20,022 nt of DNA from a virus: positions 1 to 20,022 of IMG/VR virus record IMGVR_UViG_3300031774_000212, one strand, 5' to 3'. Below are positions 5,162-20,022 of this stretch, one piece after another (position 1 is the first letter of the stretch; every line of letters starts with the position of its first letter). The position numbers were made by a program, and so were the translations under genes. The notes under the pieces are model-generated. The model had not been told where the DNA came from. It worked only from the letters and a program-made list of their open reading frames with translations, and did not search any database.

Positions 5162-6580
5162 ATGGCTACTATATCTATTGCAGACAACGATGCACGAATA
5201 CAACATAGTATAGGTGGTGGAGGCAACACAGCAGACTCCACACAGTTTACTATTGATTTTCCCTTCTTTGCCCTTGATGATATTGATGTAACAATAACCA
5301 GTAGTGCTGGTGTTGATACTGTAATAACTAGAGGCACAGGTGCTGGTACATTTGCAGTATCAGGCACAGCCGTAGATGATGGGTTCTCTGGTGGATATAT
5401 TACATTAGGATCAGTTTACACCAGTTCTACTGTAACAATTTCAAGAGATATACCTATAGTAAGAACAAGTGACTTTGCCACATCGGGTCCTTTTAATATA
5501 TCAAGTTTAAATACTGAATTAGATAAAGTTTATGCAGTAATGCAACAAGTTGAAACTAATAATGCTAGAGCATTAAGTATGCCGACTACTGATACGTTAA
5601 ATTCAATAACATTACCAACTAATGTATCTCGTAGAGGTAAATATTTGGCTTTTAATGATTCAACTGGAGATGCTGAAATTGGAGGAGACGTAGCTGACAC
5701 GGGTACAGTATCTGCAATATCAGGAAACATTACAACAGTTGCTGGTATATCAGCTAACGTAACTACAGTAGCTGGAATTGCATCTAACGTAACAACAGTA
5801 GCTGGCATTAGCTCTAATGTAACAAGTGTTGCTGGTGCAATTACAAATATTAATGCTTTAGCAGCTTCTGATGTAATTACAGACATGGCATTATTAGGAA
5901 ACGCAGATGTGATAGCTGACATGGCTTTACTTGCAACAAGTGATGTTATATCCGATATGAATACTTTGGCAGTATCAGATGTAATAGCTGATTTAAATAC
6001 ATTGGCAACATCTGACATTGTAACTGATATAAATTTGTTGGCTACAAGTGATATAGTAAGCGATCTTAATACATTAGCTACTAGTGATATAGTTTCTGAT
6101 TTAAACACACTTGCAACTTCCGATATTGTTTCAGACTTAAATACCCTGGCAACAAGCGATATTGTTTCCGATATAAATACATTAGCAACAAGCGACATTG
6201 TAAGTGATTTAAATACACTTGCTACAAGCGATATTGTTACTGATTTAAATTTATTAGCTACATCAGCAAACGTAACTAACATGGCTACTCTTGGAGCATC
6301 AGGTGTAGTAACCAACATTGCATCTGTAGCTGGTATTGCCAGTAATGTTACAACAGTAGCTGGAGTTGCAAGCAATGTAACGACTGTTGCTGGTATCGCA
6401 AGTAACGTAACCACAGTAGCTGGTGCTAACAGTAATATTTCTACAGTAGCAGGTGCTAACAGCAACATATCAACTGTTGCAGGTTCAATAGCTAATGTGA
6501 ATACAGTAGCAAGTAACATAGGAACAATATCAGCTAAAGCATCAAAAGGATTTGCTACAGCTATGGCGATTGCACTTTAA
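5162..6580 (+). CDS. Tail fibre with T7-gp17-like N-terminal adaptor and repeat shaft
   Basis: A 472-residue protein. Residues 1-130 resemble the T7 tail-fibre N-terminal domain that anchors fibres to the podovirus tail: an FTIDFPFFALDDIDVTI strand region, an ISRDIPIVRTSDF motif and an SLNTELDKVYAVMQQVE helix. The shaft then follows as four 10-residue repeats (193-232, VAGIxSNVTT type), thirteen 12-residue repeats (233-388, LATSDIVSDLNT type) and six more 10-residue repeats (389-448). The protein ends about 24 residues later with no receptor-binding tip, so the tip is probably one of the proteins encoded downstream. A short ribosome site (AAAGG) precedes the ATG. The family assignment of the N-terminus is fairly firm; the trimeric shaft is inferred. 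Confidence 0.82.
   Translation: MATISIADNDARIQHSIGGGGNTADSTQFTIDFPFFALDDIDVTITSSAGVDTVITRGTGAGTFAVSGTAVDDGFSGGYITLGSVYTSSTVTISRDIPIVRTSDFATSGPFNISSLNTELDKVYAVMQQVETNNARALSMPTTDTLNSITLPTNVSRRGKYLAFNDSTGDAEIGGDVADTGTVSAISGNITTVAGISANVTTVAGIASNVTTVAGISSNVTSVAGAITNINALAASDVITDMALLGNADVIADMALLATSDVISDMNTLAVSDVIADLNTLATSDIVTDINLLATSDIVSDLNTLATSDIVSDLNTLATSDIVSDLNTLATSDIVSDINTLATSDIVSDLNTLATSDIVTDLNLLATSANVTNMATLGASGVVTNIASVAGIASNVTTVAGVASNVTTVAGIASNVTTVAGANSNISTVAGANSNISTVAGSIANVNTVASNIGTISAKASKGFATAMAIAL
5738..6505 (+). repeat. Intragenic tandem repeats (30-bp and 36-bp units)
   Basis: Four 30-bp units (5738-5857), thirteen 36-bp units (5858-6325) and six 30-bp units (6326-6505) encode the shaft of the tail fibre. 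The peptide repeats are close to identical while codons differ between copies (for example attgtttcagactta against atagtttctgattta). The array is therefore old and held by selection on the protein, not a recent DNA duplication. Confidence 0.9.
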
Positions 6581-6591
6581 AGGAGTAATAA

Positions 6592-6918
6592 ATGGCACAA
6601 GATTTTGAAAGAAACACAGCAAATGCAGTAGGCACTGGTGCTACTACATTAAGGACTGCAAACTCATATGATGCCATAGTCGGCATAACAGTAGCAAATG
6701 TTCATTCATCACAGATAACAGTAGAAGTTTACATTAATGATGGATCAAACGACATACACATTGTTAAAGATGCACCAATACCAGTAGGAGGTGCTTTGCA
6801 AGTTCTTGATGGTGGTGCAAAAATAGTAATGGTGTCTGGTGATGCACTCAAAGTAAAAAGTAATACTGCAAGTTCTGCTGATGTTTGGGTATCGGTAGTT
6901 GATGCTATTAGTGAATAG
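6592..6918 (+). CDS. Small tail-associated beta-rich protein
   Basis: A 108-residue protein, 11 bases after the tail-fibre stop, with a good ribosome site (AAAGGAG). It is made of short beta-strand-like segments rich in Val, Thr and Ala, with no membrane segment, Cys or signal peptide. Proteins of this size and make-up are common beside fibre genes in marine phages and often form a small beta-sandwich in the tail or head. Nothing in the sequence identifies a catalytic role. It is probably a minor structural protein that decorates or connects the fibre. Confidence 0.6.
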   Translation: MAQDFERNTANAVGTGATTLRTANSYDAIVGITVANVHSSQITVEVYINDGSNDIHIVKDAPIPVGGALQVLDGGAKIVMVSGDALKVKSNTASSADVWVSVVDAISE

Positions 6919-7781: not shown

Positions 7782-8984
7782 ATGGCATATATTGGCACAA
7801 GTCCAAGCAACGGAGTAAGGCGAGTTCACACCTATACTGCAACTGCTAATCAGACTACATTTACTGGCAGTTCTACAGAGGGTGTAACTCTATCCTATGC
7901 AGATACAAACTACATAGATGTATTTCAGAATGGTGTATTACTAGGTAGTGCAGACTATACAAGTACAAGTGGTACATCTGTTGTATTGGCTCAAGGTGCT
8001 AGTGTATCAGACCTGGTTGTTATTGTTGTGTATGATGTATTTTCTGTGGCAGATACAGTAAGCAAAACAGCAGGTGGTAGCTTTGATAGTGCTATAACTA
8101 TTGGAGGTACACTAGGAGTTACTGGAGAAACAACTTTAGCTACTCATTTAAATATGGGTGATGATGACAAGATTAAACTTGGTGCAGGTTCGGATTTACA
8201 ACTATATCACGATGGTACAAATAGTTATGTTAATAATACAACTGGTAATCTTATAGTTCAAAGTGGTGCTAATGCTTATATGAATGTTAATAGCAGTGAA
8301 AATGCTGTTGCTTGTATAGCAAATGGTGCTGTAGGTCTTTATTATGACAATTCTGAAAAGTTAGTTACGACTACACATGGAATAACAGTAAATGGTAGGC
8401 AAACAATACTTCATAATGGAGCATCAGATTATGCTATGTATGTATACAATGACGGAGATAATGCTAACAGGTATGGTATTTATATGCAAATTGGTGATGA
8501 TGATGGAACAGGAACAAGTATCTTCCTAAGTTTTGTAGATGGTGATGGTAATACTGTGGGTAGTGTTACCTTTACTGGCAGTACTACAAGTTTCAACACA
8601 TCTTCAGATTATAGATTAAAAAATAATATAACAGATTTAACAGATGCTACTGCTAAAGTAAAAGAGTTAAAACCTAAAAAGTTTAGTTGGAAAAAAGATA
8701 AAAATAGTACATTAATACATGGTTTTCTAGCACATGAAGTTGCAGAAGTTATTCCTGAAGCTGTAGTTGGCGAAAAAGATGCCATGACAGAAGAAGTGCT
8801 TTATGTTGATGGTGATGAAATACCTAAAGGCAAAAAAGTAGGAGATGTAAAAGAAGCATCAAAGATTGCTCCACAAGGTATTGACCCATCTAAATTGATT
8901 CCGTTACTAACAAAAGCCATACAAGAATTATCAGCTAAAAATGATGCACTTGAAACACGAATTAAAGCATTGGAGAGTAAGTAA
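7782..8984 (+). CDS. Tail fibre/tip protein with S74 intramolecular chaperone
   Basis: A 400-residue protein. Residues 1-90 form an N-terminal beta domain (TANQTTFTG, YIDVFQNGVLLG, DYTSTSGTSVVL) of a type seen in many marine phage tail proteins. Residues 100-120 carry TIGGTLGVTG. Residues 126-160 have the KIKLGAGSDLQLYHDGTNSY segment common in such fibres. The C-terminus is an S74-type chaperone starting near S275 in SSDYRLK: Ser275 and Lys280 match the Ser/Lys pair of endosialidase-type chaperones, which assemble a trimer and then cleave themselves off before the Ser. HGFLAHEV and a final coiled coil (LTKAIQELSAKNDALETRI) complete it. The chaperone assignment is strong; target specificity is unknown. 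The stop overlaps the next start by one base (TAATG). Confidence 0.82.
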   Translation: MAYIGTSPSNGVRRVHTYTATANQTTFTGSSTEGVTLSYADTNYIDVFQNGVLLGSADYTSTSGTSVVLAQGASVSDLVVIVVYDVFSVADTVSKTAGGSFDSAITIGGTLGVTGETTLATHLNMGDDDKIKLGAGSDLQLYHDGTNSYVNNTTGNLIVQSGANAYMNVNSSENAVACIANGAVGLYYDNSEKLVTTTHGITVNGRQTILHNGASDYAMYVYNDGDNANRYGIYMQIGDDDGTGTSIFLSFVDGDGNTVGSVTFTGSTTSFNTSSDYRLKNNITDLTDATAKVKELKPKKFSWKKDKNSTLIHGFLAHEVAEVIPEAVVGEKDAMTEEVLYVDGDEIPKGKKVGDVKEASKIAPQGIDPSKLIPLLTKAIQELSAKNDALETRIKALESK

Positions 8985-10309
8985 TGACCAAAGCAGCAGA
9001 TACAGCAAATATATTAAAGCAACCTTTTACTAATACATTAGGCGGATCTAATTATCGTGCAGGTGTCAATGCAGGTGATTCAGTAGCTAGTGGTGGTGAA
9101 TTTAACGTACTTGTTGGTGATGAAGCAGGAACTGCTATAACGACTGGCACAGACAACACTTTTATAGGTGCTTTAGCAGGAGATGCTTTAATTGATTCTG
9201 ACCATAATGTAGCAGTAGGGTATCAATCTCAAACGGCAGATACTAAAGGAAGTAAGTCAACTGCTTTAGGTGCATTTTCTTTAAATGCTCAAAACTTTAC
9301 ATCTGCTACAGATTCTCACAATACAGCCATAGGCTATTCGGCAGGAGGTGCAGTAACAACTGGTACATCTAATACTCTAATTGGTTCTCAGTCTGGTAAT
9401 GCAACTAATACTGGAGTTAGAAACGTAGCGATTGGACATGAAGCTATGTATAGTCAAACAGATGGAAGTAATAACGTATCTATTGGTTGGCAGGCAGGCT
9501 ATACTAATAATGGCAATAACAATGTTGCTATCGGTTGGCAGGCTTTGTATAGTGGTAATGGTTCTGATAGCTGTGTAGCCATTGGCAGAGAAGCATTAGA
9601 AGTTGCTACTGGAGACAGTAATACAGCAATCGGTTATCAGGCAGGGCAAGGACTAACAACTGGTGTTAACAATATTGAGATTGGGTATCAATCAGGAACA
9701 TACTCAACAGCTTTGCAAACTGGTGGTCAAAATATATTAATTGGTAATTATTCTAAAACAAGTTCAAGCAGTATAGATTACGAAATTGTTATCGGCTATA
9801 ACGCAGCAGGGCAAGGCAATCAAACATTTACATTCGGTCAAGGTTCGGTAGATACTAGTATAGGTTTCGGAGGAACTGGTTGGAATGCACCATCAGATGA
9901 AAGATTAAAAGAAGATATTAAAGATGAAACTGTAGGTCTTGCATTTATTAATGAACTTAGACCAGTAACATTTCAATGGAAAAAAGAAAAAGACATTCCT
10001 GAAGATATGGAAGGTTACGATAAAGATTCTGATGAAAGAGTTATGAATGGTAAATATAATCATGGTTTTATAGCACAAGAAGTTAAAGCAGTTATAGATA
10101 AATATGATATTAAAGATGGCTTAGGTCTTTGGCTAGAAGCAGGTAAAGATAAAAGACAAAGATTAGCTGAAAGTGAACTTATACCATTCTTAACAAAAGC
10201 AATTCAAGAATTATCAGCACAAGTAACAGCATTAGAAACAGAAAACAAAACACAATCAACACAGATTGCTGATTTGATTAGCAGAGTTACAGCATTGGAG
10301 AGTGCATGA
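8984..10309 (+). CDS. Second S74-chaperone protein with YadA-like repeat head
   Basis: A 441-residue protein. Residues about 40-285 are loose repeats of 15-25 residues centred on NVAIGxxA / NTAIGYQA, the pattern of YadA-head-type left-handed beta-roll trimers in adhesins. The C-terminus begins with APSDERLKEDI, where Ser304 and Lys309 fit the S74 Ser/Lys pair. It continues through HGFIAQEV to a coiled coil whose LTKAIQELSA matches the preceding gene almost exactly, so the chaperones are paralogous although the fibre parts differ. It probably forms a trimeric tail spike or fibre tip that matures by self-cleavage. Its stop and the next start overlap by one base (TGATG). Confidence 0.8.
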   Translation: MTKAADTANILKQPFTNTLGGSNYRAGVNAGDSVASGGEFNVLVGDEAGTAITTGTDNTFIGALAGDALIDSDHNVAVGYQSQTADTKGSKSTALGAFSLNAQNFTSATDSHNTAIGYSAGGAVTTGTSNTLIGSQSGNATNTGVRNVAIGHEAMYSQTDGSNNVSIGWQAGYTNNGNNNVAIGWQALYSGNGSDSCVAIGREALEVATGDSNTAIGYQAGQGLTTGVNNIEIGYQSGTYSTALQTGGQNILIGNYSKTSSSSIDYEIVIGYNAAGQGNQTFTFGQGSVDTSIGFGGTGWNAPSDERLKEDIKDETVGLAFINELRPVTFQWKKEKDIPEDMEGYDKDSDERVMNGKYNHGFIAQEVKAVIDKYDIKDGLGLWLEAGKDKRQRLAESELIPFLTKAIQELSAQVTALETENKTQSTQIADLISRVTALESA

Positions 10310-11442: not shown

Positions 11443-11808
11443 ATGATACAACTACTGGGACCAATAGCCAATATTGCCACGACTTGGCTTCAAGGCAAAC
11501 AAGAGAAAGCCAAAGCCAAACAACAATTAGAAGTTGCAAAAGTACAAGCACAAGTAAAACGTGTTGAGCAAGAAGGATCATGGGACGAAAAAGCAATGGA
11601 CGCTTCTGACAATAGTTGGAAGGACGAAGCATGGACTATTTGCTTTATCTCTTTAATTTTTGCGTGCTTCATTCCAGCTCTACAACCATACATATCTGAT
11701 GGCTTTAAGTTTTTAAGAGAAGATTGTCCTGAATGGTTAAGTTACGGGATTTTGGCCTCAATAGCTGCAAGCTTTGGGCTAAAATCTATAGCAAAGTTAA
11801 AAAAATGA
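11443..11808 (+). CDS. Probable holin, 3TM gene-transfer-agent type
   Basis: A 121-residue protein. A short apolar N-terminus (LLGPIANIATTWL) leads into a Lys/Gln-rich helix (about 18-45), then SWKDEAWTICF with a hydrophobic segment (about 64-85), a short loop (REDCPEWL) and a second hydrophobic segment (about 98-117). This pattern, with a Trp-rich entry to the first clear span, resembles the GTA_holin_3TM family (PF11351), whose members form inner-membrane pores that release the endolysin. Its stop overlaps the start of the muramidase as ATGA, the usual holin-endolysin coupling. The holin role is well supported by context; the exact family is tentative. Confidence 0.6.
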   Translation: MIQLLGPIANIATTWLQGKQEKAKAKQQLEVAKVQAQVKRVEQEGSWDEKAMDASDNSWKDEAWTICFISLIFACFIPALQPYISDGFKFLREDCPEWLSYGILASIAASFGLKSIAKLKK

Positions 11809-12329
11809 TAGGTAACTTTGATAAAGCATTAGAGCTAGTTCTAAAACATGAAGGAGGTTATGTAGATCACCCTAAAGACCCAGGAGGAGCTACTAACTAT
11901 GGAGTAACCAAAAAGGTATATGAGGCTTATCTTGGTAGAAAATGTACTAAAGAAGAAGTAAAGGATATGCCATTAGAAGCTGTAGGCGATATATATAAAA
12001 GAAAATACTGGGACAAAGTTAAAGGCGATGAATTGCCTAGTGGATTGGATTGGGCAGTATTTGATTTTGCAGTTAATGCTGGTGTATCAAGAGCTTCTAA
12101 AGTATTGCAAGGATTTCTTAAAACATCAGTAGATGGTCATATAGGTCCTTCTACATTACAAGCTGTTGAGAACTACCCTACTTCAATTAAAGGTGTCATA
12201 GAAGTCTATACGGCTCAAAGATCAAGCTTTTACAGAACATTAAGTACCTATGATACGTTTGGTAAAGGTTGGGATAGACGATGCTATGAAACAAGGAAAA
12301 CAGCATTAGAAATGTTAGAGAGTACCTAA
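11805..12329 (+). CDS. Endolysin: GH108 N-acetylmuramidase
   Basis: A 174-residue protein starting at the ATG at 11805, inside the holin stop. An in-frame extension upstream to 11733 lies wholly within the holin gene and is not needed. The N-terminus LVLKHEGGYVDHPKDPGGATNYGVT is the hallmark of glycoside hydrolase family 108; Glu16 in HEGGY is the expected catalytic acid. The C-terminal half (about 90-170), with DGHIGPSTL and KGWDRRCYETR, matches the peptidoglycan-binding domain usual in this family. It should cut the MurNAc-GlcNAc backbone. No signal peptide is present, so it needs the holin to reach the wall. Length is typical for the family. Confidence 0.92.
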   Translation: MIGNFDKALELVLKHEGGYVDHPKDPGGATNYGVTKKVYEAYLGRKCTKEEVKDMPLEAVGDIYKRKYWDKVKGDELPSGLDWAVFDFAVNAGVSRASKVLQGFLKTSVDGHIGPSTLQAVENYPTSIKGVIEVYTAQRSSFYRTLSTYDTFGKGWDRRCYETRKTALEMLEST

Positions 12330-12593
12330 GCTACTTTTAACTCCTATTGCTGATGATGGTCTTGATCTATGCATAACACCCTCATCAGGATCAAATGCTA
12401 TATCTTCAAAAGAACCTTCTTCTTCTATATCCCTTAAAGGTCTAGCTTGAAGTTCCATTGGTATTTTTTTTAATTCTGTTACCATTGCTCGTTTTTCAAA
12501 TCCACAAGCTTCACAAAGCTTTGCTTTTTCATATTTAGTCACAAGTACGTCTACACCACATTCTATACATGATTGTTTAATCTTATTTTCCAT
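12315..12593 (-). CDS. Zinc-ribbon protein next to the attachment site, moron candidate
   Basis: A 92-residue protein with an AGAGGT ribosome site before its ATG. Two CxxC pairs (C9-x2-C12 and C28-x2-C31) suggest a small zinc ribbon. The rest is acidic and probably disordered (RDIEEEGSFEDIAFDPDEG). It is transcribed against the lysis cassette and overlaps the muramidase end by 15 bases. After integration it would lie at the extreme end of the prophage, beside the attachment site, on the opposite strand from the late genes. That is the typical place for a gene expressed in lysogens. Its target is unknown; an RNA- or protein-binding regulatory role is possible. Confidence 0.55.
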   Translation of the reverse strand: MENKIKQSCIECGVDVLVTKYEKAKLCEACGFEKRAMVTELKKIPMELQARPLRDIEEEGSFEDIAFDPDEGVMHRSRPSSAIGVKSSLGTL

Positions 12594-12614
12594 GTGAATA
12601 CCTCTATTTCGTTT

Positions 12615-12643
12615 AATTTAGTATTGTTTAACTGCACCTTCAA
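12615..12643 (-). promoter_or_regulatory. Possible promoter of the zinc-ribbon gene
   Basis: On the minus strand, TTGAAG (12643-12638) and TAAATT (12620-12615) are separated by 17 bases, ending 22 bases before the ATG at 12593. The spacing is ideal and the match moderate. A private promoter is needed because the gene faces away from its neighbours. Confidence 0.35.
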
Positions 12644-12680
12644 AGGGATAGATTTAATGTTAAGTCTGTCCCTTTATTTT
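12642..12680 (+). terminator. Rho-independent terminator of the late/lysis transcript
   Basis: AAAGGGATAGA (12642-12652) pairs with TCTGTCCCTTT (12665-12675) in 11 pairs, including one U-G wobble. The loop can close further to a 15-pair stem with a 4-base loop. TTATTTT-type sequence follows. The wobble is paired only in plus-strand RNA, so it should end the plus-strand structural/lysis transcript. Confidence 0.75.
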
Positions 12681-12694
12681 ACTATTCACATAAA

Positions 12695-12713
12695 TGGGGA
12701 CAATTTGGGGACA
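12695..12713. repeat. 19-bp direct repeat, left copy (possible integrase arm site)
   Basis: TGGGGACAATTTGGGGACA, itself two TGGGGACA units spaced 11 bases apart. The identical 19-mer recurs at 12948-12966 in the same orientation. Together the copies flank the tRNA-like attachment core, the arrangement expected of arm-type binding sites for a tyrosine integrase or its accessory factor. Confidence 0.6.
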
Positions 12714-12797
12714 CAAAAGTAATGTGAATTGAGCTTCATACGTCAAATATGATTAGATATCTAAATATTGCCCAACTCGGCAGTAGTGGGGAAAAGA

Positions 12798-12839
12798 GGC
12801 TCAAAGTGTTAGTACGCCTAACATTTGGGTCTTTTTTTT
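12798..12839 (+). terminator. Strong rho-independent terminator beside attP
   Basis: GGCTCAAA-g-TGTTAG (12798-12812) pairs with CTAACATTTGGGTC (12818-12831) around a TACGC loop, with one bulged G and two G-U pairs, and is followed by eight T. It reads on the plus strand and no gene ends nearby. It either insulates the attachment site from late transcription or ends a short RNA begun at about 12715-12760. Confidence 0.75.
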
Positions 12840-12846
12840 GAATAGA

Positions 12847-12891
12847 TGGTGGGACTAACTGGGATTGAACCAGTGACCCCTTCGATGTCAA
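12847..12891 (-). other. attP core: 3' half of a tRNA-Val(GAC)
   Basis: Read on the minus strand this is a perfect tRNA 3' half: anticodon loop TTGACAT (GAC anticodon, U33 present), stem strand CGAAG, variable loop GGGTC, T-arm ACTGG-TTCAATC-CCAGT with all five pairs, acceptor strand TAGTCCC, discriminator A and CCA. The 5' half is absent: no GGGACTA lies upstream and the bases before the anticodon loop (TGTAG) do not pair with CGAAG. It is therefore not a tRNA gene but the segment that rebuilds the host tRNA when the phage integrates. The identity begins in the anticodon loop, a known crossover position for tyrosine integrases in tRNA genes. Confidence 0.85.
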
Positions 12892-12932
12892 CTACATAGT
12901 ACCTAAGTCATTGTTTTATATAGACGAACTAT

Positions 12933-13133
12933 CTAGTCATCGGCATTTGGGGACAATTTGGGGACAATTTCTTTTGTAATGGTATCAATCCTTTCATCTT
13001 TAAAATCTACCATTTCCATTTTTTCAAAGTCACCATCAAGGTATATTTCTTCTGCTTCTTCTTCAGAATGAGCATAAACTTCATATTCTGATATTAATGT
13101 GCAACTAGTTGTTACTTTATATTGATTCTTCAT
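12933..13133 (-). CDS. Small acidic protein, DpnD/PcfM-like candidate
   Basis: 66 residues if started at the ATG at 13133, which has a GGAG site 7 bases upstream; earlier in-frame ATGs at 13163 and 13145 lack one. The pattern YKVTTSCTLISEYEVYAHSEEEAEEIYLDGDF has a beta strand, then a helix opening with SEEEAEE. It recalls small DpnD/PcfM-type proteins that often accompany mobile elements, whose function is unknown. The last codons are written in the 19-bp att repeat. It is the last gene of the integrase operon before the attachment site. Confidence 0.5.
   Translation of the reverse strand: MKNQYKVTTSCTLISEYEVYAHSEEEAEEIYLDGDFEKMEMVDFKDERIDTITKEIVPKLSPNADD
12948..12966. repeat. 19-bp direct repeat, right copy (possible integrase arm site)
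   Basis: Identical to 12695-12713, 253 bases away and on the other side of the tRNA-derived core. It overlaps the 3' end of the small acidic gene and continues as a further partial GGGGACAATTT. See the left copy for interpretation. Confidence 0.6.
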
Positions 13134-13202
13134 TATTTTCTCCATTTTAAAGGGTACAATCATACATGAGTCTATCGTTAACCCTACTGTATGGCTCTTA
13201 AA

Positions 13203-13355
13203 TCAAGGCGTTTTTTCATCATTCTTGCACATTGGCACATAAAACTTAACATGGAGCTGATTTCCTTGTAGTGAGGAAATGTAAGTTTCATTAGGACAAG
13301 TTTTAAGCCAATCTAATAATTTTTCCATACTTGCAATTTGATATGTGTTAGGCAT
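13203..13355 (-). CDS. Small protein downstream of integrase (50 aa)
   Basis: ATG at 13355 is preceded by a strong ribosome site (GGAAGGAGAG, 4 bases away) and the frame runs 50 codons to TGA at 13205-13203. The start (MPNTYQIASMEKLLDWLKTC) looks like an amphipathic helix, followed by a short beta-like part with a second Cys pair position and a polar tail. No known family. The good start signal and its place 32 bases after the integrase stop support expression in the same transcript. Confidence 0.5.
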   Translation of the reverse strand: MPNTYQIASMEKLLDWLKTCPNETYISSLQGNQLHVKFYVPMCKNDEKTP

Positions 13356-13387
13356 TTTACTCTCCTTCCCCACTACTGTCGTGAGGG

Positions 13388-14404
13388 TTATTTCATCTTG
13401 TTAATATCGTCTCTTAAATGTTCAGGGTTTAACCTGATATAATGAGTTACAGACTTTGAATCATTCCAGCCACCAAGAGCCATTAGCTTCTTGTCGTTAA
13501 TACCAGCTAACGCATGGGTAGATGCCCAATGTGATCTCCAGTTGTGAACTTTAAATCTTCTGTTTTCACCCAAGGCACTTTTGACAGCCCTTGTATGAGT
13601 TTTGTCCAAAGGGTTACCGAGTCTTGTATAGAAATACCTAAAGGGTTTGAGTGTAGTTGATAGGAATACTGGACCTTCCCGTTCTCTGTTAAGCAAACGT
13701 AGACTTTCGTATATTCTTTCATGCATTGGGATAGACCTAAAATCGCCGTTCTTGGTGTCCCAGAATGTGACAGTCCGTTTATCCATATCAACGTCCTTCC
13801 ATAATAGACAGACGGCTTCGCCAATTCTAGCTCCTGAATAGCAAAGGAAAATAATAAGTGGTTGGAGAATTGGGTTAAAAGCATTGATTAATCTTTCTTG
13901 TTCTTCATAAGACAAGTAGACTGGTTTTGGCTTTTCTACTTGTCGTCCTTCAATTTTTTGAATGGTAATATTTGGGCTTCTTTGTTTGGAGCCGTATTTA
14001 AGAATTGCCGTGAGTGTTCCTCTGAGTCTATTAAAGTAAGAGGGCTTGATTCCTGGCTTAGTTCTATTAAGTATCGTGTTGAACATTCCATTGTTAATGT
14101 CAGACAAACGGGTATTCCCGAAATGTTGATTAAGAAATCGTATTCTTGCTTCGGTTGATGGATCGATTGACTCTTTTGCATTGAGGTAATCAATCGTAGC
14201 ATCTCTAAAGCAATAGTTTGTGGAGTGTCCTCGTCCATAACTTTGATCTATGATTTTTCCATAGATTTCATGAGCAAGTTTTTCTGCTTCTTGACGGCTA
14301 GTAGTTTTTGCAGACTGTTTAACCCTGAAGCTTCCGTTTGGAGTTTGGATTGTTCCTTGAATATATAAGTTTTTTCTATTTTTTCTTTTTCGTACTTGAA
14401 GCAA
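13388..14404 (-). CDS. int: Tyrosine-recombinase integrase
   Basis: A 338-residue integrase that should recombine attP (12847-12891) with the host tRNA-Val gene. The N-terminus (about 5-50, VRKRKNRKNLYIQG…) is an arm-binding-type domain. Residues about 60-140 are the core-binding helical domain. The catalytic domain carries Arg193 (GARIGE), Lys218 (TKNG), His287-x2-Arg290 (HNWR), Trp313 (LGGW) and the nucleophile Tyr322 (HYIRL), so the full set is present. The start is TTG at 14404, with a stop two codons upstream in frame and a GGGTAGGGA ribosome-like stretch; no ATG option reaches the conserved N-terminus. It overlaps the upstream excisionase candidate by 157 bases. All its neighbours run in the same direction. 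Confidence 0.95.
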   Translation of the reverse strand: MLQVRKRKNRKNLYIQGTIQTPNGSFRVKQSAKTTSRQEAEKLAHEIYGKIIDQSYGRGHSTNYCFRDATIDYLNAKESIDPSTEARIRFLNQHFGNTRLSDINNGMFNTILNRTKPGIKPSYFNRLRGTLTAILKYGSKQRSPNITIQKIEGRQVEKPKPVYLSYEEQERLINAFNPILQPLIIFLCYSGARIGEAVCLLWKDVDMDKRTVTFWDTKNGDFRSIPMHERIYESLRLLNREREGPVFLSTTLKPFRYFYTRLGNPLDKTHTRAVKSALGENRRFKVHNWRSHWASTHALAGINDKKLMALGGWNDSKSVTHYIRLNPEHLRDDINKMK

Positions 14405-14586
14405 TGTTCCCTACCCTTCAAGAAGTTATAAAAGTCTTTTTCTTTAATTAGCCAATTACCACTATCTAGAATTATTGGCACAGTTGATTTTCTTAGTAAA
14501 GCTTTCCAGCGATTTAGATTCTTTATATTTGAATCTAAACCACAGAAAGTCTCTAAAAGATACGATAATGGGTATCGTCTATCCAT
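14248..14586 (-). CDS. Excisionase-like DNA-binding protein candidate
   Basis: 112 residues from the ATG at 14586, which has GAGG 6 bases upstream and overlaps the preceding stop. Residues 1-60 (…LNRWKALLRKSTVPIILDSGNWLIKEKDFYNFLKGRE) look like a winged-helix or AlpA/Xis-type fold: helix, turn, a short hairpin with DSGNWLI, then a helix. The last 52 codons overlap the integrase start in another frame and are Lys-rich and low in complexity. Its position directly upstream of int and its basic charge (many K/R) make it the best candidate for the directionality factor, but no family motif proves it. Confidence 0.5.
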   Translation of the reverse strand: MDRRYPLSYLLETFCGLDSNIKNLNRWKALLRKSTVPIILDSGNWLIKEKDFYNFLKGREHCFKYEKEKIEKTYIFKEQSKLQTEASGLNSLQKLLAVKKQKNLLMKSMEKS

Positions 14587-14785
14587 CTCTATCCTCGTCC
14601 ATAAAGCCAAAGATATTTAAAGTGCCATCATCAATTTTATTCTGAAGAAAATTTCTTTTTAATTCAATTCCTTCAGGTAATGGTTTCCCAGTATCTTCTT
14701 CAATTAAAAAATCTATTTTTCTCAAAGCTTGATACTGTTCTTTTGACACTTTTATATCTTCAACAATGACATAATAATTTCTCAT
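14579..14785 (-). CDS. Small unknown protein in the recombination operon (68 aa)
   Basis: A 68-residue acidic protein whose ATG shares one base with the stop of the annealing-protein gene (TAATG) and whose end overlaps the start of the next gene by 8 bases. An N-terminal beta strand (NYYVIVEDIKV) is followed by helices and an acidic tail (GFMDEDRDG). No metal-binding or catalytic motif. The tight coupling shows it is translated with the recombination genes. Function unknown. Confidence 0.55.
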   Translation of the reverse strand: MRNYYVIVEDIKVSKEQYQALRKIDFLIEEDTGKPLPEGIELKRNFLQNKIDDGTLNIFGFMDEDRDG

Positions 14786-15420
14786 TAAGCAGCAGCTTTA
14801 ATCTTATTGAGATAGGTTTTGTAATGACCTTGAAGCTTGGTAACAATTTTAGCATCTAATTTATTTATTATTGGAGCTTCTGCTTTCCAAGTTGTAGCAA
14901 GTTCTTCTTTATCCTTACAAGCACCTAATGCTGAATCTATACGTTGATAATGAGCATGATCTTGTTCATTTTTAGTAGCTTTCTTAATATCAAGATAATC
15001 TTTATCCATTACTGGTAAATCTTCTCCAGCATATATGGAAGTGCCTAGTCCGTGATAAGCTAAACATTTAACAAGACCTCTTTGTAAGGCAGTATTGACT
15101 TGAAATGATGTTGCTGCTTTTAGAGGCTCATTTCTATTGCCTAATACTGGATAAATTTCTGATTGAGTAATACCATCAATAGTTACTGACACAGACACAT
15201 AAGTATATGTGAGAGAATCTCTCATAAATGGTAATATGTTGTCTTGGTTGTCACTAAAGGTATGCTTTTCAAATGTAGCAGTTGGGTAATGTTGCTTGAC
15301 TAATGCCCAAGCCCATGCCCATGAAACATAACTGAATTGACCTTTCTTATCTATATGGTCTGATACGTCTATTGCAGACAAGGTAGCCCAAACCGATTTA
15401 GCTGAGTTTTTAGTTGCCAT
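14785..15420 (-). CDS. Single-strand annealing protein, DUF1071/Sak3-like
   Basis: A 211-residue protein. The segment GQFSYVSWAWAWALVKQHYPTATFE (about 27-51) is the recognisable signature of the DUF1071/Sak3 group of phage annealing proteins (PF06378). It is followed by a beta-rich core with TYVSVSVTIDG and VLGNRNEPLK, and then SFQVNTALQRGLVKCLAYHGLGTSIYAGED. The C-terminal ~65 residues are helical and charged. Such proteins anneal complementary single strands during phage recombination and work with a 5'-3' exonuclease, here the gene directly upstream, which overlaps its start by 11 bases. A Redβ-like pair role is inferred from the family and the pairing. Confidence 0.82.
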   Translation of the reverse strand: MATKNSAKSVWATLSAIDVSDHIDKKGQFSYVSWAWAWALVKQHYPTATFEKHTFSDNQDNILPFMRDSLTYTYVSVSVTIDGITQSEIYPVLGNRNEPLKAATSFQVNTALQRGLVKCLAYHGLGTSIYAGEDLPVMDKDYLDIKKATKNEQDHAHYQRIDSALGACKDKEELATTWKAEAPIINKLDAKIVTKLQGHYKTYLNKIKAAA

Positions 15421-16279
15421 CTCTTTTTTCCTTTTTAGGTTGATGTTTAAGTGTGATTGTATTGGTCTTGCTACGAGATACGATTATCTTGTCGCCTTGT
15501 AGATTACCTGACAAATCCAAGACCATCTTGCGACAATTTGCAGGTAAATAATGTTTGATTTCTGTTTTAGCCGTATCAGCAATCTTATTGGCTTTTGAGG
15601 CTTCAATAATATCCTGGGCATTGAGATTCATTTCAGATTGCATCTGATTGTCCCAACATTCTAAGTCAGACATATTAATGGTAATTTGATCTGTCCAATC
15701 GACTGGAGGTAGCATCTCAAATGCATCAGGCATAATGTCTTTTGTGTACCAAAGCCAAAACTGTTTACATTGGTCCAAATACATCTCAAGCCATGCATCA
15801 TCTCTCTGTAATTTTCTGTATTCCATACGGCAATGAACACCAAAGAACACGGCTATATAACAATGATCTTTAGCCCTTGTGTGCATATGATGTTGACATT
15901 GTGGAGCATAAAGATCACATATTTCTTCCATAGTCATAAAACCCCAATGAGTTTTAGCTTCTACTGGGTTTCCATCTGAGGCAATAGCATCATAAGTAGA
16001 GTGTATTGGTACACCATGATAATCTATTGTTTTACCACTTCCTCTAGCACCTATTTTAAGATCGGTAATATTTGCGAAGCTGTCTAGAACATACGGCTCC
16101 ATGAAATTACCAGTATCAAACAGAAACTGTAATTGTTTGGTAACAAGACGTTCTTGCTCACCTTTTTTTTCTGATATGAGCTTTGCCCAGTCAGAGAATG
16201 AACCATCGGCTATAATCTTAGCTTCAGATGAACCTATAAAGTTTTTACGTTCACTAAGCTGCTTTTGTGTGAGTGCCAT
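15410..16279 (-). CDS. YqaJ-type phage exonuclease
   Basis: A 289-residue member of the YqaJ / lambda-exonuclease-like PD-(D/E)xK family. The fold motifs are in order: GSSEA (16-20), TGNFMEPYVLD with Glu61, STYDAIA with Asp97, VEAKT with Glu107 and Lys109 as the D-ExK core, and QCQHHMH (127-133) with the conserved Gln/His helix. It should degrade 5' ends of double-stranded DNA to give 3' single strands for the annealing protein encoded next, whose start it overlaps. The gene overlaps its upstream neighbour by 26 bases. Catalytic residues look intact. The role in phage replication by recombination or end repair follows from the pair. Confidence 0.88.
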   Translation of the reverse strand: MALTQKQLSERKNFIGSSEAKIIADGSFSDWAKLISEKKGEQERLVTKQLQFLFDTGNFMEPYVLDSFANITDLKIGARGSGKTIDYHGVPIHSTYDAIASDGNPVEAKTHWGFMTMEEICDLYAPQCQHHMHTRAKDHCYIAVFFGVHCRMEYRKLQRDDAWLEMYLDQCKQFWLWYTKDIMPDAFEMLPPVDWTDQITINMSDLECWDNQMQSEMNLNAQDIIEASKANKIADTAKTEIKHYLPANCRKMVLDLSGNLQGDKIIVSRSKTNTITLKHQPKKEKRDGN

Positions 16280-16520
16280 TATGCTTTCCTTCCTGATATT
16301 GTTTATCTAAATCATTGGATAACCAGTCCTCTTGAGCATATGGACTGTTGCGACCTTCCCAAGATAGTTTTGAAACGTCCAAGAACTTATCCATATCGAA
16401 TCTGCTATTTCTTGATTTGGCTTTAACCTTTTCTGCAAACTCTTTCATATCGTGTGGATAGATCATTGGAGCAATTTCCTCTGCAAACCATTTAACGTCT
16501 TTTCTAGTCATTCTATTCAT
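16254..16520 (-). CDS. First gene of the recombination operon, unknown (88 aa)
   Basis: 88 residues from the ATG at 16520, which has a GAGGTG site 5 bases before it; an in-frame ATG at 16532 contains this site and is less likely. The protein is helical and charged (KDVKWFAEEIAPMIYPHDMKEFAEKVKAKSRNSRFDMDKFLDVSKL). The repeated FAE/F-D-x-x-KF pattern resembles small conserved phage proteins often found beside recombination genes, function unknown. It overlaps the exonuclease by 26 bases, so translation is coupled, and the operator-like site lies 14 bases upstream of its start. Confidence 0.55.
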   Translation of the reverse strand: MNRMTRKDVKWFAEEIAPMIYPHDMKEFAEKVKAKSRNSRFDMDKFLDVSKLSWEGRNSPYAQEDWLSNDLDKQYQEGKHNGTHTKAA

Positions 16521-16533
16521 GTTACACCTCATT

Positions 16534-16556
16534 TGCCTAGATAAATCGGCATTATA
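16534..16556 (-). promoter_or_regulatory. Promoter -10 and operator of the recombination/integration operon
   Basis: On the minus strand a perfect TATAAT (16556-16551) is followed at once by the 18-base near-palindrome TGCCGATTTATCTAGGCA (16551-16534), ending 14 bases before the start codon at 16520. This 18-mer matches 15 of 18 bases of the site at 17787-17804 in the control region. No good -35 is seen 17 bases upstream. Binding here would cover the start of transcription, so the repressor probably silences the integrase and recombination genes. Confidence 0.55.
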
Positions 16557-16567
16557 ATTAAATTTTT

Positions 16568-17137
16568 TTAGACCTTACGGATTAACTGAACAACAACTCC
16601 CATTATATCTACTAATCCTACATCTATTTCTTGTTGGCTTTGTGCCGATCTAGGGAGCAAGTATGGTGTTCTGTATTCCATAATCTGTATTTTATTCTTA
16701 AATTGTATTAATACTGTTTTTCCATCTTTTGGCTTTATGTCAGGATCAACAACTATTGTATCTCCTACATGATACCCAGCTAAGTCCATAGTGTTCCATT
16801 GAACAGGAATAGCAAAAGCTCTAGGAGATATATCTTCTGTAGTGACTATTGTTTTATCTGTTTCCATTAACGCACCTTTTTTATATACCATAATTGGTAA
16901 TGTTTTAACTTTGGAAACAAGAGCTGTCGGATTAGGAAAGTCTGGGTATGATTTGCTTACTGCACCTAATTTGGAAATTACAGTTTGCGATAAACACCAG
17001 GGCTTTTCTTTTATAAATCTTTGTAAGGTGCTTGGAGCTACTCCTGATTCCATAGCCCACTTTCTAGCACTCCAGCCCTTTTTATTTAGGGTTTGGAGAA
17101 CCCAGTCATGTACCCTCCCAATAGTATCTGACATCAT
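16568..17137 (-). CDS. Lysogeny repressor with inactive S24/LexA-type C-domain
   Basis: A 189-residue protein (an ATG at 17134, 3 bases on, is better placed behind AGGTG). Residues about 15-45 are a helix-turn-helix (GWSARKWAMESGVAPSTLQRFIKE). Residues about 105-189 have the S24 fold pattern: FAIPVQWNTMDLAGYHVGDTIVVDP, then KPKDGKTVLIQF. The place of the catalytic Ser (usually G/D-S-M) is Thr116 in NTM, and the Lys normally following in a VKRL-like strand is missing (QIMEYR). It should bind operators and dimerise through the S24 domain but not self-cleave. It lies 15 bases after the winged-helix gene, facing away from a Cro-like gene, as in lambda-type switches. Confidence 0.8.
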   Translation of the reverse strand: MMSDTIGRVHDWVLQTLNKKGWSARKWAMESGVAPSTLQRFIKEKPWCLSQTVISKLGAVSKSYPDFPNPTALVSKVKTLPIMVYKKGALMETDKTIVTTEDISPRAFAIPVQWNTMDLAGYHVGDTIVVDPDIKPKDGKTVLIQFKNKIQIMEYRTPYLLPRSAQSQQEIDVGLVDIMGVVVQLIRKV

Positions 17138-17152
17138 GCACCTAAAATGTAT

Positions 17153-17713
17153 TTATCCCTTGCCTCTTTGTTTCTTCGAACTTTTAAGAATAAAAGAAGC
17201 AACATTATCTTCAATACCACTTAAGTTTGTACTTGAGGTGCTATTGAATTGTGAGTCATACTGTAGTTCACTTCTATCTACAGTAGAAGATTGAAGTAAA
17301 TTAAAAGATTTAACTATCATTGGCAAGATAGTTGATTCATACCATTGAAACCACTCATCATTTATATGAATTATTTCATCGGAAGGGTGCAAAAACACCT
17401 TATGAACATCTATGCCAGTACCTTTTTCTTTGTAAAGCCAGCCTTCAGCTTCCCAAACACTTACTATTTCATTAATAGCTTTACGACTCACTCCCATTTC
17501 AGCAGTTATAATTGCTGGTGTTATAGCTCTGTTAGAATAAAAAGAATGGACGATCCATGTTGCAAAATGAAATCGTGTTCTTGTTGAATTAGTATATCTT
17601 AACCATTTATGATTGTTTCTATTATTTTGTATTTGCTCAAGTATCATTCTAGCTTTTAATACAGTAGCTCTAGAAATTCTAAGCTCTAATGGATAGTCTT
17701 TATAATCAAACAT
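17153..17713 (-). CDS. Winged-helix DNA-binding protein upstream of the repressor
   Basis: 186 residues from the ATG at 17713, which has GGAGGTG 6 bases upstream; an ATG at 17728 overlaps this site. Residues about 60-110 (VHSFYSNRAITPAIITAEMGVSRKAINEIVSVWEAEGWLYKEKG) form a clear winged helix-turn-helix of MarR/GntR-like type. The C-terminal part is Ser/Asn-rich and probably flexible. It is the first gene of the leftward lysogeny transcript, before the repressor. It may regulate the switch or modulate establishment; it is not itself recognisable as a repressor of a named family. Confidence 0.65.
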   Translation of the reverse strand: MFDYKDYPLELRISRATVLKARMILEQIQNNRNNHKWLRYTNSTRTRFHFATWIVHSFYSNRAITPAIITAEMGVSRKAINEIVSVWEAEGWLYKEKGTGIDVHKVFLHPSDEIIHINDEWFQWYESTILPMIVKSFNLLQSSTVDRSELQYDSQFNSTSSTNLSGIEDNVASFILKSSKKQRGKG

Positions 17714-17744
17714 GGGTTGCACCTCCATACCAATTAATATGTTA

Positions 17745-17772
17745 AGAATAGTTATTTAGTCACGGAAGTCAA
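17745..17772 (-). promoter_or_regulatory. Leftward (repressor) promoter with internal half-operator
   Basis: On the minus strand, TTGACT (17772-17767) and TATTCT (17750-17745) have a 16-base spacer. The spacer holds a site matching the operator at its CTAG-side half: plus-strand TAGTTATTTAGTCA (17749-17762) against TAGTTATCTAGTCA, 13 of 14. This arrangement would let the repressor regulate its own transcript. It drives the winged-helix and repressor genes. Confidence 0.55.
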
Positions 17773-17778
17773 GTACTA

Positions 17779-17807
17779 TTGATTTATGCCTAGTTATCTA
17801 GTCATAT
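17779..17807 (+). promoter_or_regulatory. Rightward (cro/ruvC) promoter with 18-bp palindromic operator
   Basis: TTGATT (17779-17784), 17-base spacer, TCATAT (17802-17807); the -10 match is weak. The spacer and -10 are covered by TGCCTAGTTATCTAGTCA (17787-17804), a near-perfect palindrome around TTAT (TGNCTAG/CTAGNCA). This copy and the one in the leftward promoter are spaced 42 bases, four helical turns, so bound proteins would sit on the same face. Confidence 0.5.
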
Positions 17808-17825
17808 TCACATAAGAGGTGTGAT

Positions 17826-18062
17826 ATGCAAACTAAAGAACAAGAATGGATTACTGATGTAATCTCTCAGTTTACCACCAGACGATATGAACTAGAAATT
17901 TCACAAAATGAACTAGACCATATAATAGGTTGTGCTACTGGATTAGTAGCGAAATGGGAAACTGGAAACAGAAAGCCAACAGCATTTAATTTGTATTGTT
18001 GGGCAGAAGCCCTCAACTGTCAAATCAATGTGGAGGCGATAAATGATAATATGCGGAATTGA
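17826..18062 (+). CDS. Cro-like helix-turn-helix protein
   Basis: A 78-residue protein with an AGAGGTG ribosome site. Residues about 20-60 (YELEISQNELDHIIGCATGLVAKWETGNRKPTAFNLYCWAEALN) are a Cro/C1-type (XRE) helix-turn-helix with the usual W-E-x-G-x-R-x-P motif after the recognition helix. It is the first gene of the rightward transcript, opposite the repressor, which is the position of Cro. It probably competes for the same operators and favours lytic growth. Its 3' end overlaps the resolvase start by 20 bases. Confidence 0.8.
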   Translation: MQTKEQEWITDVISQFTTRRYELEISQNELDHIIGCATGLVAKWETGNRKPTAFNLYCWAEALNCQINVEAINDNMRN

Positions 18063-18516
18063 TCCTGGGTTATCAGGAGGATTATCCTTTTTCAACAATG
18101 AGAATAAAACAATTCATGCTGAAAAAGCACCTATATTCCAGTTAAAGACTAAAGCCAAGACTAAAAGATTCCTAGATATGTGGACATTAATGGCTATGTT
18201 AGATGAACATGATCCTGACCATGTATATATAGAGAAACAACAAGCAATGCCACAACAAGGACTGGTAAGTACATTTGCTACTGGCATGGGTTATGGTGTT
18301 TACTTAGGTCTTTTAGTAGCTGGAGGCTGGTCATATACAGAAGTAGCATCAAGAACTTGGAAGAAAGACCTTAATTGTACTGCTGATAAAGACCATGCTA
18401 GAAAAAGAGCATCAGAGTTAATGCCCAATGGTAGCCATCTCTGGCAACAGAAAAACCAAGATGGAATTGCTGAAGCCAGTTTGATAGCCTATTGGGGAAT
18501 ATATAAAAGTAATTAG
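18043..18516 (+). CDS. RuvC-like Holliday junction resolvase
   Basis: A 157-residue RuvC-fold nuclease. The N-terminal strand motif GIDPGLSGG carries Asp7; YIEKQQAMPQQG carries Glu64; and DGIAEASLIAYWG near the C-terminus supplies Asp140 and Glu144, completing the acidic cluster. Length matches phage members of the family. It should cut four-way junctions arising from recombination-dependent replication, linking it to the exonuclease/annealing pair encoded on the other side of the switch. It is co-transcribed with the Cro-like gene, so it is probably expressed early in lytic growth. Confidence 0.88.
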   Translation: MIICGIDPGLSGGLSFFNNENKTIHAEKAPIFQLKTKAKTKRFLDMWTLMAMLDEHDPDHVYIEKQQAMPQQGLVSTFATGMGYGVYLGLLVAGGWSYTEVASRTWKKDLNCTADKDHARKRASELMPNGSHLWQQKNQDGIAEASLIAYWGIYKSN

Positions 18517-18698
18517 TGGCTTTTTTTTAGTTTGCCCATTACACCTGGAATAAACTTAGTCAGCGTTCTCAGGTTTGCTTCCTAGACTTCGTTGTATGAC
18601 AAGTAAACATCTAGGCTCTTTCAAGCTGGATTCGGCTACTTAGCTGATACCACTAATTCGGTACGGCATCTTTCCATACCAGTACCTACCGACGGGTT
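18511..18698 (-). ncRNA. Candidate structured RNA in the convergent gap
   Basis: About 180 bases lie between the RuvC-like stop and the ParB-like stop, with roughly 45% GC against much lower GC around it. Read as minus-strand RNA: hairpin GGUAC-U-GGUAU/AUGCC-GUACC around GGAAAG (18686-18660), ten pairs and one bulge; GCUU-GAAA-GAGC, a stem with GNRA loop near 18627-18616; CCUAGA/UCUAGG (18615-18610 with 18586-18581); and AAUUAGUGG (18658-18650) pairing perfectly with CCACUAAUU (18519-18511) to close the whole. The first hairpin pairs fully only on the minus strand, because a U-G wobble becomes C-A on plus. No known RNA family is recognised. It could also be a structured 3' UTR of the ParB-like gene. 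Confidence 0.4.
18519..18530 (+). terminator. T-run after the resolvase gene
   Basis: The RuvC-like stop is followed by GGC and eight T. No local hairpin precedes the run, so it is only a weak terminator unless the upstream AATTAGTGG pairs elsewhere. Confidence 0.25.
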
Positions 18699-20022
18699 CT
18701 ATTTGACAGTATCAAGAAACTTTATTGGATCGAATACTGCACCTTCTTCAAAGGCACGAACAAGTTTATCGATAACTAATTTCTTGTTGTCAGTTGGTAA
18801 TAAGTCACATTTAATTTTACTAGCAAGTAAACGTAACTGAGTTATTTTATATTTATTTAACCATTCTTCCGATGGTTTAAACCAGTCTTTGGCAACAGAC
18901 GCACCATATATGTTTTTCTGTGCCGAGAAAATCTGGCTCTGATCCATAGAGGCAACAATCCCTTTATAAAGTATAGCAATGAGATCAGACTCTGTTTTAG
19001 TAAGAAAATATTGGAGAGTAGTATGTTTAGCTTTCTTACAAAAAACAACAAGGTCTTTAGCAATTTCATCAAAGTAATCATAGTAATCCTCCGTTAATTG
19101 AGCTTTATTCCAAGTAACATTTGTGTATTTCTTTGTATTAATATCACGAATATCAAACATTTGATTACATAATGTAGCTAACACATAATGTTTACTATCA
19201 GTTACTAAATGTTTGAATATGTCATCATTCCAGAAATGCTGACGTAAAGTATCTTCATACATTTCATTTGTTAGTTCTCTTTGAGGGTTAGACATATCAG
19301 CTAGTGTGAGTTCAGGAATCTCTCCATTCTCAATAGCATCTAATTCCTTTTGAGACATTTCTATTTTGCTTTTGTATTTCTGTACCCAAAACACACCTCT
19401 TAATGGCTGATATTGGATAACAACATGAATATCTTTTGGGTCTAGTTTTTCAGACTCAATTTCATGCTGATACACTTGTATTAAATTCTTAAGCAATCCT
19501 TTTACATCTGAAGGGTGTCTGTCAATAACAGTACAATCCTTAAACTTCTTATCATAATATTTGGCTTTTTCATCAACAAACTGTTTTTGTAAAGCTAAAA
19601 AGCTATCCATGTTAGCTACATATTGATGGTCGCTAAATAAATCTCCATCAAACTCAATTTCTTTAAATAGCTTGTGCTTTTCAGGAATAATAACATTTTG
19701 CCTAGATATTTTTACATTACCAATATCATGCTTGATGTCATCATAGTCAAAGTAACCATTACAATCTGTATAGATTTTGTCTTGTGTTTCTTGATCTACA
19801 TTTGTAAATAATTGTGCAATGGATAAACCAAATTCTTTATTTCTAAAGCCTTCTTTAACTTTATCGGACAGTTCAGATAAGGCTACTCTTTGCATAACCC
19901 ATTTTCTAGTCTGTCCCCAGTTAGCAGCAATCTGGTCATAATCATATTCCCCATCTTGTGCGACCTGATTAATAGCATCAGCTTCGTCAAGTGGGTGCAT
20001 ACCTTCTCTCATCATGTTAGCC
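18699..20022 (-). CDS. ParB-related protein with long C-terminal extension (5' truncated)
   Basis: The frame stays open to the window edge (…GCT-AAC before the first ATG at 20015), so the start lies outside. The first visible residues, ANMMREGMHPLDEADAI, match the end of the ParB/Srx nuclease-like domain (E/xNxxRxxMHPLEEA). A ParB/KorB-type helix-turn-helix follows (YDYDQIAANWGQTRKWVMQRVALSELSDKV…FGLSIAQLF). The remaining ~350 residues are mixed charged helices and strands I cannot assign, ending with a helical segment (ITQLRLLASKIKCDLL). Chromosome-type ParB is shorter, so this may be a phage-specific DNA-processing or modification-linked ParB-like protein, not a partition protein. A ParA partner would have to lie outside the window. 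Confidence 0.65.
   Translation of the reverse strand, partial: ANMMREGMHPLDEADAINQVAQDGEYDYDQIAANWGQTRKWVMQRVALSELSDKVKEGFRNKEFGLSIAQLFTNVDQETQDKIYTDCNGYFDYDDIKHDIGNVKISRQNVIIPEKHKLFKEIEFDGDLFSDHQYVANMDSFLALQKQFVDEKAKYYDKKFKDCTVIDRHPSDVKGLLKNLIQVYQHEIESEKLDPKDIHVVIQYQPLRGVFWVQKYKSKIEMSQKELDAIENGEIPELTLADMSNPQRELTNEMYEDTLRQHFWNDDIFKHLVTDSKHYVLATLCNQMFDIRDINTKKYTNVTWNKAQLTEDYYDYFDEIAKDLVVFCKKAKHTTLQYFLTKTESDLIAILYKGIVASMDQSQIFSAQKNIYGASVAKDWFKPSEEWLNKYKITQLRLLASKIKCDLLPTDNKKLVIDKLVRAFEEGAVFDPIKFLDTVK

Follow-up and report, generated by a model that had tools for sequence, protein, structure and literature searches.

A predicted phage attachment site matching the 3′ part of a SAR116 tRNA-Val(GAC) gene in an uncultured marine virus

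The window analyzed here is the whole stretch of 20,022 nt, which comes from a linear virus record of 20,022 bases; the features around its predicted attachment site are collected in Table 1. Between the lysis genes and the integrase gene (int) there is a 46-nt block whose reverse complement, GTTGACATCGAAGGGGTCACTGGTTCAATCCCAGTTAGTCCCACCA, reads as a tRNA from position 31 to the CCA end. It comprises the anticodon loop TTGACAT with the anticodon GAC, the 3′ strand of the anticodon stem (CGAAG), a variable loop GGGTC, a T arm ACTGG-TTCAATC-CCAGT, and a 3′ end formed by the acceptor strand TAGTCCC, A73 and CCA. All 46 nt are identical to the 3′ part of the SAR116 tRNA-Val(GAC), through the CCA. 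The host gene (GGGACTATAGCTCAGCGGGAGAGCACTTCGTTGACATCG...CCA) equals the phage sequence from G31 onward, and upstream of G31 the phage (...CTATGTA) and the host (...GCACTTC) part ways. No complete tRNA was found by ARAGORN over the 20,022-nt window.

Table 1. Features in and around the predicted attachment site, with positions in the window
Feature	Position	Strand	Basis
Endolysin (glycosyl hydrolase 108), lysis side of attP	11733..12329	+	PF05838 2.8e-30; PHROG 315 endolysin 2e-52
Predicted distal arm-type repeat pair, same 19 nt and orientation as the int-proximal pair	12695..12713	-	Shuffles; counterpart pairs in L032-L036
One arm of the conserved 16-nt inverted repeat around the att region	12778..12793	+	94% pairing with 13366-13381; kept in L032-L036
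Hairpin with a T8 tract, adjoining the CCA end of the core	12796..12838	+	MFE -16.3 kcal/mol, z -3.8; in 5/5 relatives
Predicted attP core, 3′ part of tRNA-Val(GAC)	12847..12892	-	Identity to SAR116 tRNA-Val(GAC) genes
Predicted int-proximal arm-type repeat pair TGTCCCCAAATTGTCCCCA, 11-bp tandem period	12948..12966	-	Perfect 19-nt match with 12695-12713; shuffles
Second arm of the 16-nt inverted repeat, just beyond the int stop codon	13366..13381	-	Pairing with 12778-12793; kept in L032-L036
Tyrosine integrase, 338 aa, TTG start	13388..14404	-	PF00589, PHROG 1, catalytic residues
Conserved ORF overlapping the 5′ end of int	14248..14610	-	Homologous ORFs in L032 and L033
S24-peptidase repressor-like protein, candidate lysogeny regulator	16568..17137	-	PF00717 1.4e-5; PHROG UmuD-like 1.2e-7, transcriptional repressor 2e-5
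Small HTH regulator, divergent from the repressor side	17826..18062	+	PF01381; PHROG repressor 2.5e-5

The integrase matched Pfam PF00589 with 61.9 bits (cutoff 27.1) and the PHROG 1 integrase at 1.3e-44. Residues R193, K218, H287, R290, W313 and Y322 were invariant across nine sequences, so that the set R, K, H-x-x-R, H/W and Y is complete, and the protein is full length. The ORF overlapping the 5′ end of int may encode an excisionase (RDF), for which its position is suitable; profile searches with this upstream ORF recognised no excisionase, and it gave no Pfam match at E 5. The repressor-like gene and the endolysin, as annotated by profile, fit a temperate phage.

On both sides of the core the region carries a perfect 19-nt direct repeat in the same orientation, each copy being formed by two 11-bp units. 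Dinucleotide shuffling of the region (2000 shuffles) never produced a repeat of 19 nt; a single 18-nt repeat was the longest obtained. These repeats are predicted to be arm-type sites in a lambda-type organisation. The int-proximal copy falls within the 3′ end of a small ORF of 76 aa (window 12933-13163, minus strand), where arm and coding sequence overlap. The hairpin with its T8 tract is likely the terminator of rightward (late) transcription, and most of the att region is enclosed by the 16-nt inverted repeat.

To assign a host, a 40-nt exact sub-pattern of the core was searched in ~85,000 species genomes, where it gave 27 matches: 23 complete tRNA-Val(GAC) genes (ARAGORN) and four truncated copies of the same gene that start in the D arm (L008, L021, L025 and L029). 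All 27 matches are titled SAR116 or unnamed Alphaproteobacteria, and they include the SAGs AAA015-N04, AAA536-G10 and AAA536-K22. Furthermore, the full 46-mer was present in 23 of the 111 genomes sampled from the SAR116 order, and in IMG/VR the 40-nt sub-pattern occurred in only three further contigs (L002-L004). Since the 27 matches in ~85,000 genomes were all tRNA-Val(GAC), complete or truncated, a chance resemblance between the core and the host tRNA is excluded on these counts. A first-pass annotation of this DNA had described the block as 45 nt of a tRNA-Val(GAC), from the anticodon loop to the CCA, with the 5′ half missing, and had proposed a marine alphaproteobacterial host. The block is real and one base longer; its tRNA identity and the missing 5′ half were borne out by the fit of all its parts, the 46/46 identity, the ARAGORN result and the divergence upstream of G31, and the proposed host agrees with SAR116 tRNAs that share the block, exact matches being confined to SAR116 or unnamed Alphaproteobacteria. 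In this way an uncultured marine virus is linked to SAR116, a clade that is abundant in the ocean but for which few phages have been cultured, and tRNA-Val(GAC) is indicated as the place in the genome in which to look for lysogens.

The tRNA-Val(GAC) site is used in nature, as read from the sequence of SAG AAA536-K22 (contig ATWQ01000008.1, L029:1910 to L017:396). This genome carries a 6.4-kb integrated island with a complete tRNA-Val(GAC) at one end, a 68-nt duplicate at the other and an integrase adjoining the tRNA. The truncated copies in L008, L021 and L025 resemble this duplicate. All four truncated host copies were considered as a possible attR of the present phage and rejected: the phage flank is absent and the duplicated stretch is wider, at 68 nt in the copy that was measured, which assigns them, to judge from these features, to other elements.

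Five IMG/VR loci (L032-L036) share the att layout, with conserved flanks on both sides; a pattern derived from the conserved att flank recovered no loci beyond these same five. Their integrases are 86% (L032), 76% (L033) and 67-68% (L034-L036) identical to that of the window, and their lysis and int flanks are syntenic with ~73-95% DNA identity. In every relative the fragment is the 3′ part of a tRNA ending in CCA. The cores of L034-L036 correspond to the SAR116 tRNA-Ala(GGC), and that of L032 (region 5822-6700) to the SAR116 tRNA-Thr(GGT); with respect to int, this core sits on the other strand, but the orientation of the arms, the hairpin and the inverted repeat is unchanged. The core of L033 is Val(GAC)-like and represents a second Val-like tRNA, as identified from a hand-read fold; no host for it was found among 289 Alphaproteobacteria. 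Because the cores of the relatives are SAR116 tRNA-Ala(GGC) and tRNA-Thr(GGT), the target varies whereas the host clade is constant.

The arms also vary from phage to phage, but the left and right copies in any one phage are identical or almost so. The window and L032 share the arm sequence TTGTCCCCAAATTGTCCCC, L034 has TTGACACAGAATTGTCACA, L035 and L036 have TGGCACAGAATTGGCACA, and L033 has a looser TGACACA pair. Both arms change together, along with the N-terminal domain of the integrase: identities in the N-terminal and catalytic domains were 59% and 85% between the window and L033, and 62% and 89% between L034 and L036. In the window, L033, L034, L035 and L036, respectively, the proximal arm lies 64, 64, 74, 74 and 74 nt from tRNA position 38 (numbering in L033 follows the hand-read fold), and the distal arm lies 132, 132, 142, 142 and 142 nt from the CCA. 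This 10-bp step on each side, one helical turn, is what would be expected if the arms are kept in helical phase with the core. A more tentative suggestion is that we are dealing with one small lineage of SAR116 phages in which the core may be an exchangeable cassette (Val, Ala, Thr), even inverted as in L032, while the arms, the terminator and the inverted repeat stay put; such an exchange would be feasible given two arms that, as identical direct repeats, can trade the P and P′ roles. The relatives form a short natural series of phages with different tRNA targets, in which the arm sequence co-varies with the integrase N-terminal domain, and which makes arm recognition and target switching testable. 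Among more distant int relatives (L040, L041 and L043-L047, 43-46%), tRNA-Gly(GCC)-like fragments were seen that contain both strands of the anticodon stem.

Taken as a whole, the region is very probably the attP of a temperate podovirus-like phage, which would insert in the SAR116 tRNA-Val(GAC) and rebuild the gene. According to this model, the N-terminal domain of the integrase would bind the two tandem arm repeats, and its core-binding and catalytic domains would bind the tRNA-like core. The enzyme would then catalyse recombination between attP and the 46-bp stretch of the host tRNA-Val(GAC) that is identical to the core. Integration would fuse the 5′ part of the host gene to the 3′ part supplied by the phage, giving a complete and unchanged tRNA-Val(GAC), and the 3′ part of the host gene would end up at the int end of the prophage. 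Against this simple model, the close relative L032 has its core in inverted orientation with respect to int and the arms, a situation that the model does not predict.

With respect to the site of strand exchange, the tRNA would be whole again wherever in the 46 bp the crossover occurred. The position near the anticodon loop that had been proposed initially is plausible, although the crossover is bounded to the 46-mer rather than pinned. In its favor, identity between the window and the host spans the whole anticodon loop, anticodon-centred sites (class A) are the commonest tRNA class, with 2083 of the 3919 islands catalogued by Islander (PMC4383910), and the anticodon loop and stem match the layout of the lambda core (PMC8371274). 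In the relatives, identity with the host tRNA starts at position 36 in L034 and at position 38 in L035 and L036, and L032 has a mismatch at position 37. If the family shares one crossover position, it would lie at or 3′ of position 38; such a shared crossover could fall 3′ of the loop because the identity of L034-L036 begins only at 36-38.

A 3′ tRNA fragment beside int is also typical of the distal end of a prophage, so the block could be read as the attL or attR of an integrated element, or else as the product of a chimeric assembly. We regard this as extremely improbable. Phage genes lie on both sides, and L032-L036 keep the same order with high DNA identity; the synteny of both flanks in these loci shows that the window has attP in unintegrated DNA. 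A chimera would not recur in independent contigs, and the comparison by synteny refutes both versions. The first-pass reading of an intact attP between the lysis genes and int, in a free (unintegrated) form rather than at a phage-host junction, is upheld by the same synteny; a complete tRNA-Val in related sequences would have spoken against it, and in L032-L036, the five syntenic relatives, ARAGORN found no complete tRNA. It could be imagined that the fragment is a by-product of the pickup of a tRNA, or that it is a tRNA-derived RNA gene acting as a decoy or tRNA supplement, in view of the tRNA genes that occur in some phages and of tRNA-dependent lysogeny, which exists according to the available part of one report (PMC10865867). 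This reading is largely refuted, and its chances seem to us minimal, given that the window has no complete tRNA and that the relatives keep the position and the arms and swap the tRNA species, always with the 3′ part to the CCA, as att cores should.

It could also be argued that the attP is a relic of past integration in tRNA-Val(GAC), the site being now dead and the phage effectively lytic. In agreement with this, no lysogen was detected: integrase relatives were absent from 58 SAR116-family genomes at E 1e-20 and from 385 Alphaproteobacteria at E 1e-50, and the phage flank followed the host tRNA in 0 of the 27 copies. It should be noted that this absence is weak evidence, because SAR116 genomes are largely single-cell or metagenome assemblies, most of them partial; the phage need not be integrated in any genome searched. 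On the other hand, neutral decay would probably have hit at least one of four features that are all in good order: a core with 46/46 identity to living hosts, two arms that are perfect copies, a full-length integrase retaining every catalytic residue, and a repressor-like gene. A dead site is therefore very unlikely, and a functional attP is preferred.

The mechanism of attachment itself is well known, and here it is found in a virus of a mostly uncultured host. In 2013, matching of attP to host tRNAs was used to assign uncultured marine phages (uvMED), including the SAR116 group G16 (PMC3861242). To the extent covered by the available text of that study, G16 resembles the present phage in the integrase/attP-tRNA logic and the SAR116 host, G16 having ~35% GC, and both works share SAG AAA015-N04, whose tRNA-Val (L024) matches the core. 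Searches against named phages, a collection from which the G16 records are perhaps missing, gave no megablast match for window 12001-20022 and no integrase above 60% identity. As in the class A tyrosine-integrase elements of Islander, attP carries a 3′ tRNA fragment by which the gene is restored (3760 of the islands have a 3′ fragment; PMC4383910); unlike them, the cores of the relatives lose identity inside the anticodon loop and the crossover is only bounded. Integrases often switch tRNA targets (PMC4383910).

The top-ranked integrase match among named phages was that of Acetobacter phage phiAX1 (LC644973), with 27% identity over 99%. This phage also has a tRNA-Val(GAC)-like 45-nt fragment directly beyond int, but its host and integrase are distant, and its attP is not described in the available part of its literature. 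The IMG/VR contigs L002-L004 contain the same SAR116 tRNA-Val(GAC) core (45 nt), whereas their integrases are only 25-29% identical (27% in L004). L004 (8972-11237) has a near-identical gene of 121 aa next to the lysis gene; its endolysin is a different one, and its core is in the opposite orientation to int. Between these contigs and the window the integration module seems to have been exchanged. Two points were less expected: the core of L032 is inverted, and the integrase of L002-L004, although only distantly related, uses the same SAR116 tRNA-Val.

Outside the att region, a tail-fibre-like ORF (window 5162-6580, plus strand) contains repeated SNVTTVAGI and LATSDIVSDLNT motifs, and the 329-aa open frame opposite to it (5530-6519, minus strand) is probably a by-product of these repeats. 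Two neighbouring tail proteins (window 7782-8984 and 8984-10309, plus strand) each present a C-terminal endosialidase-type chaperone domain (Peptidase_S74).
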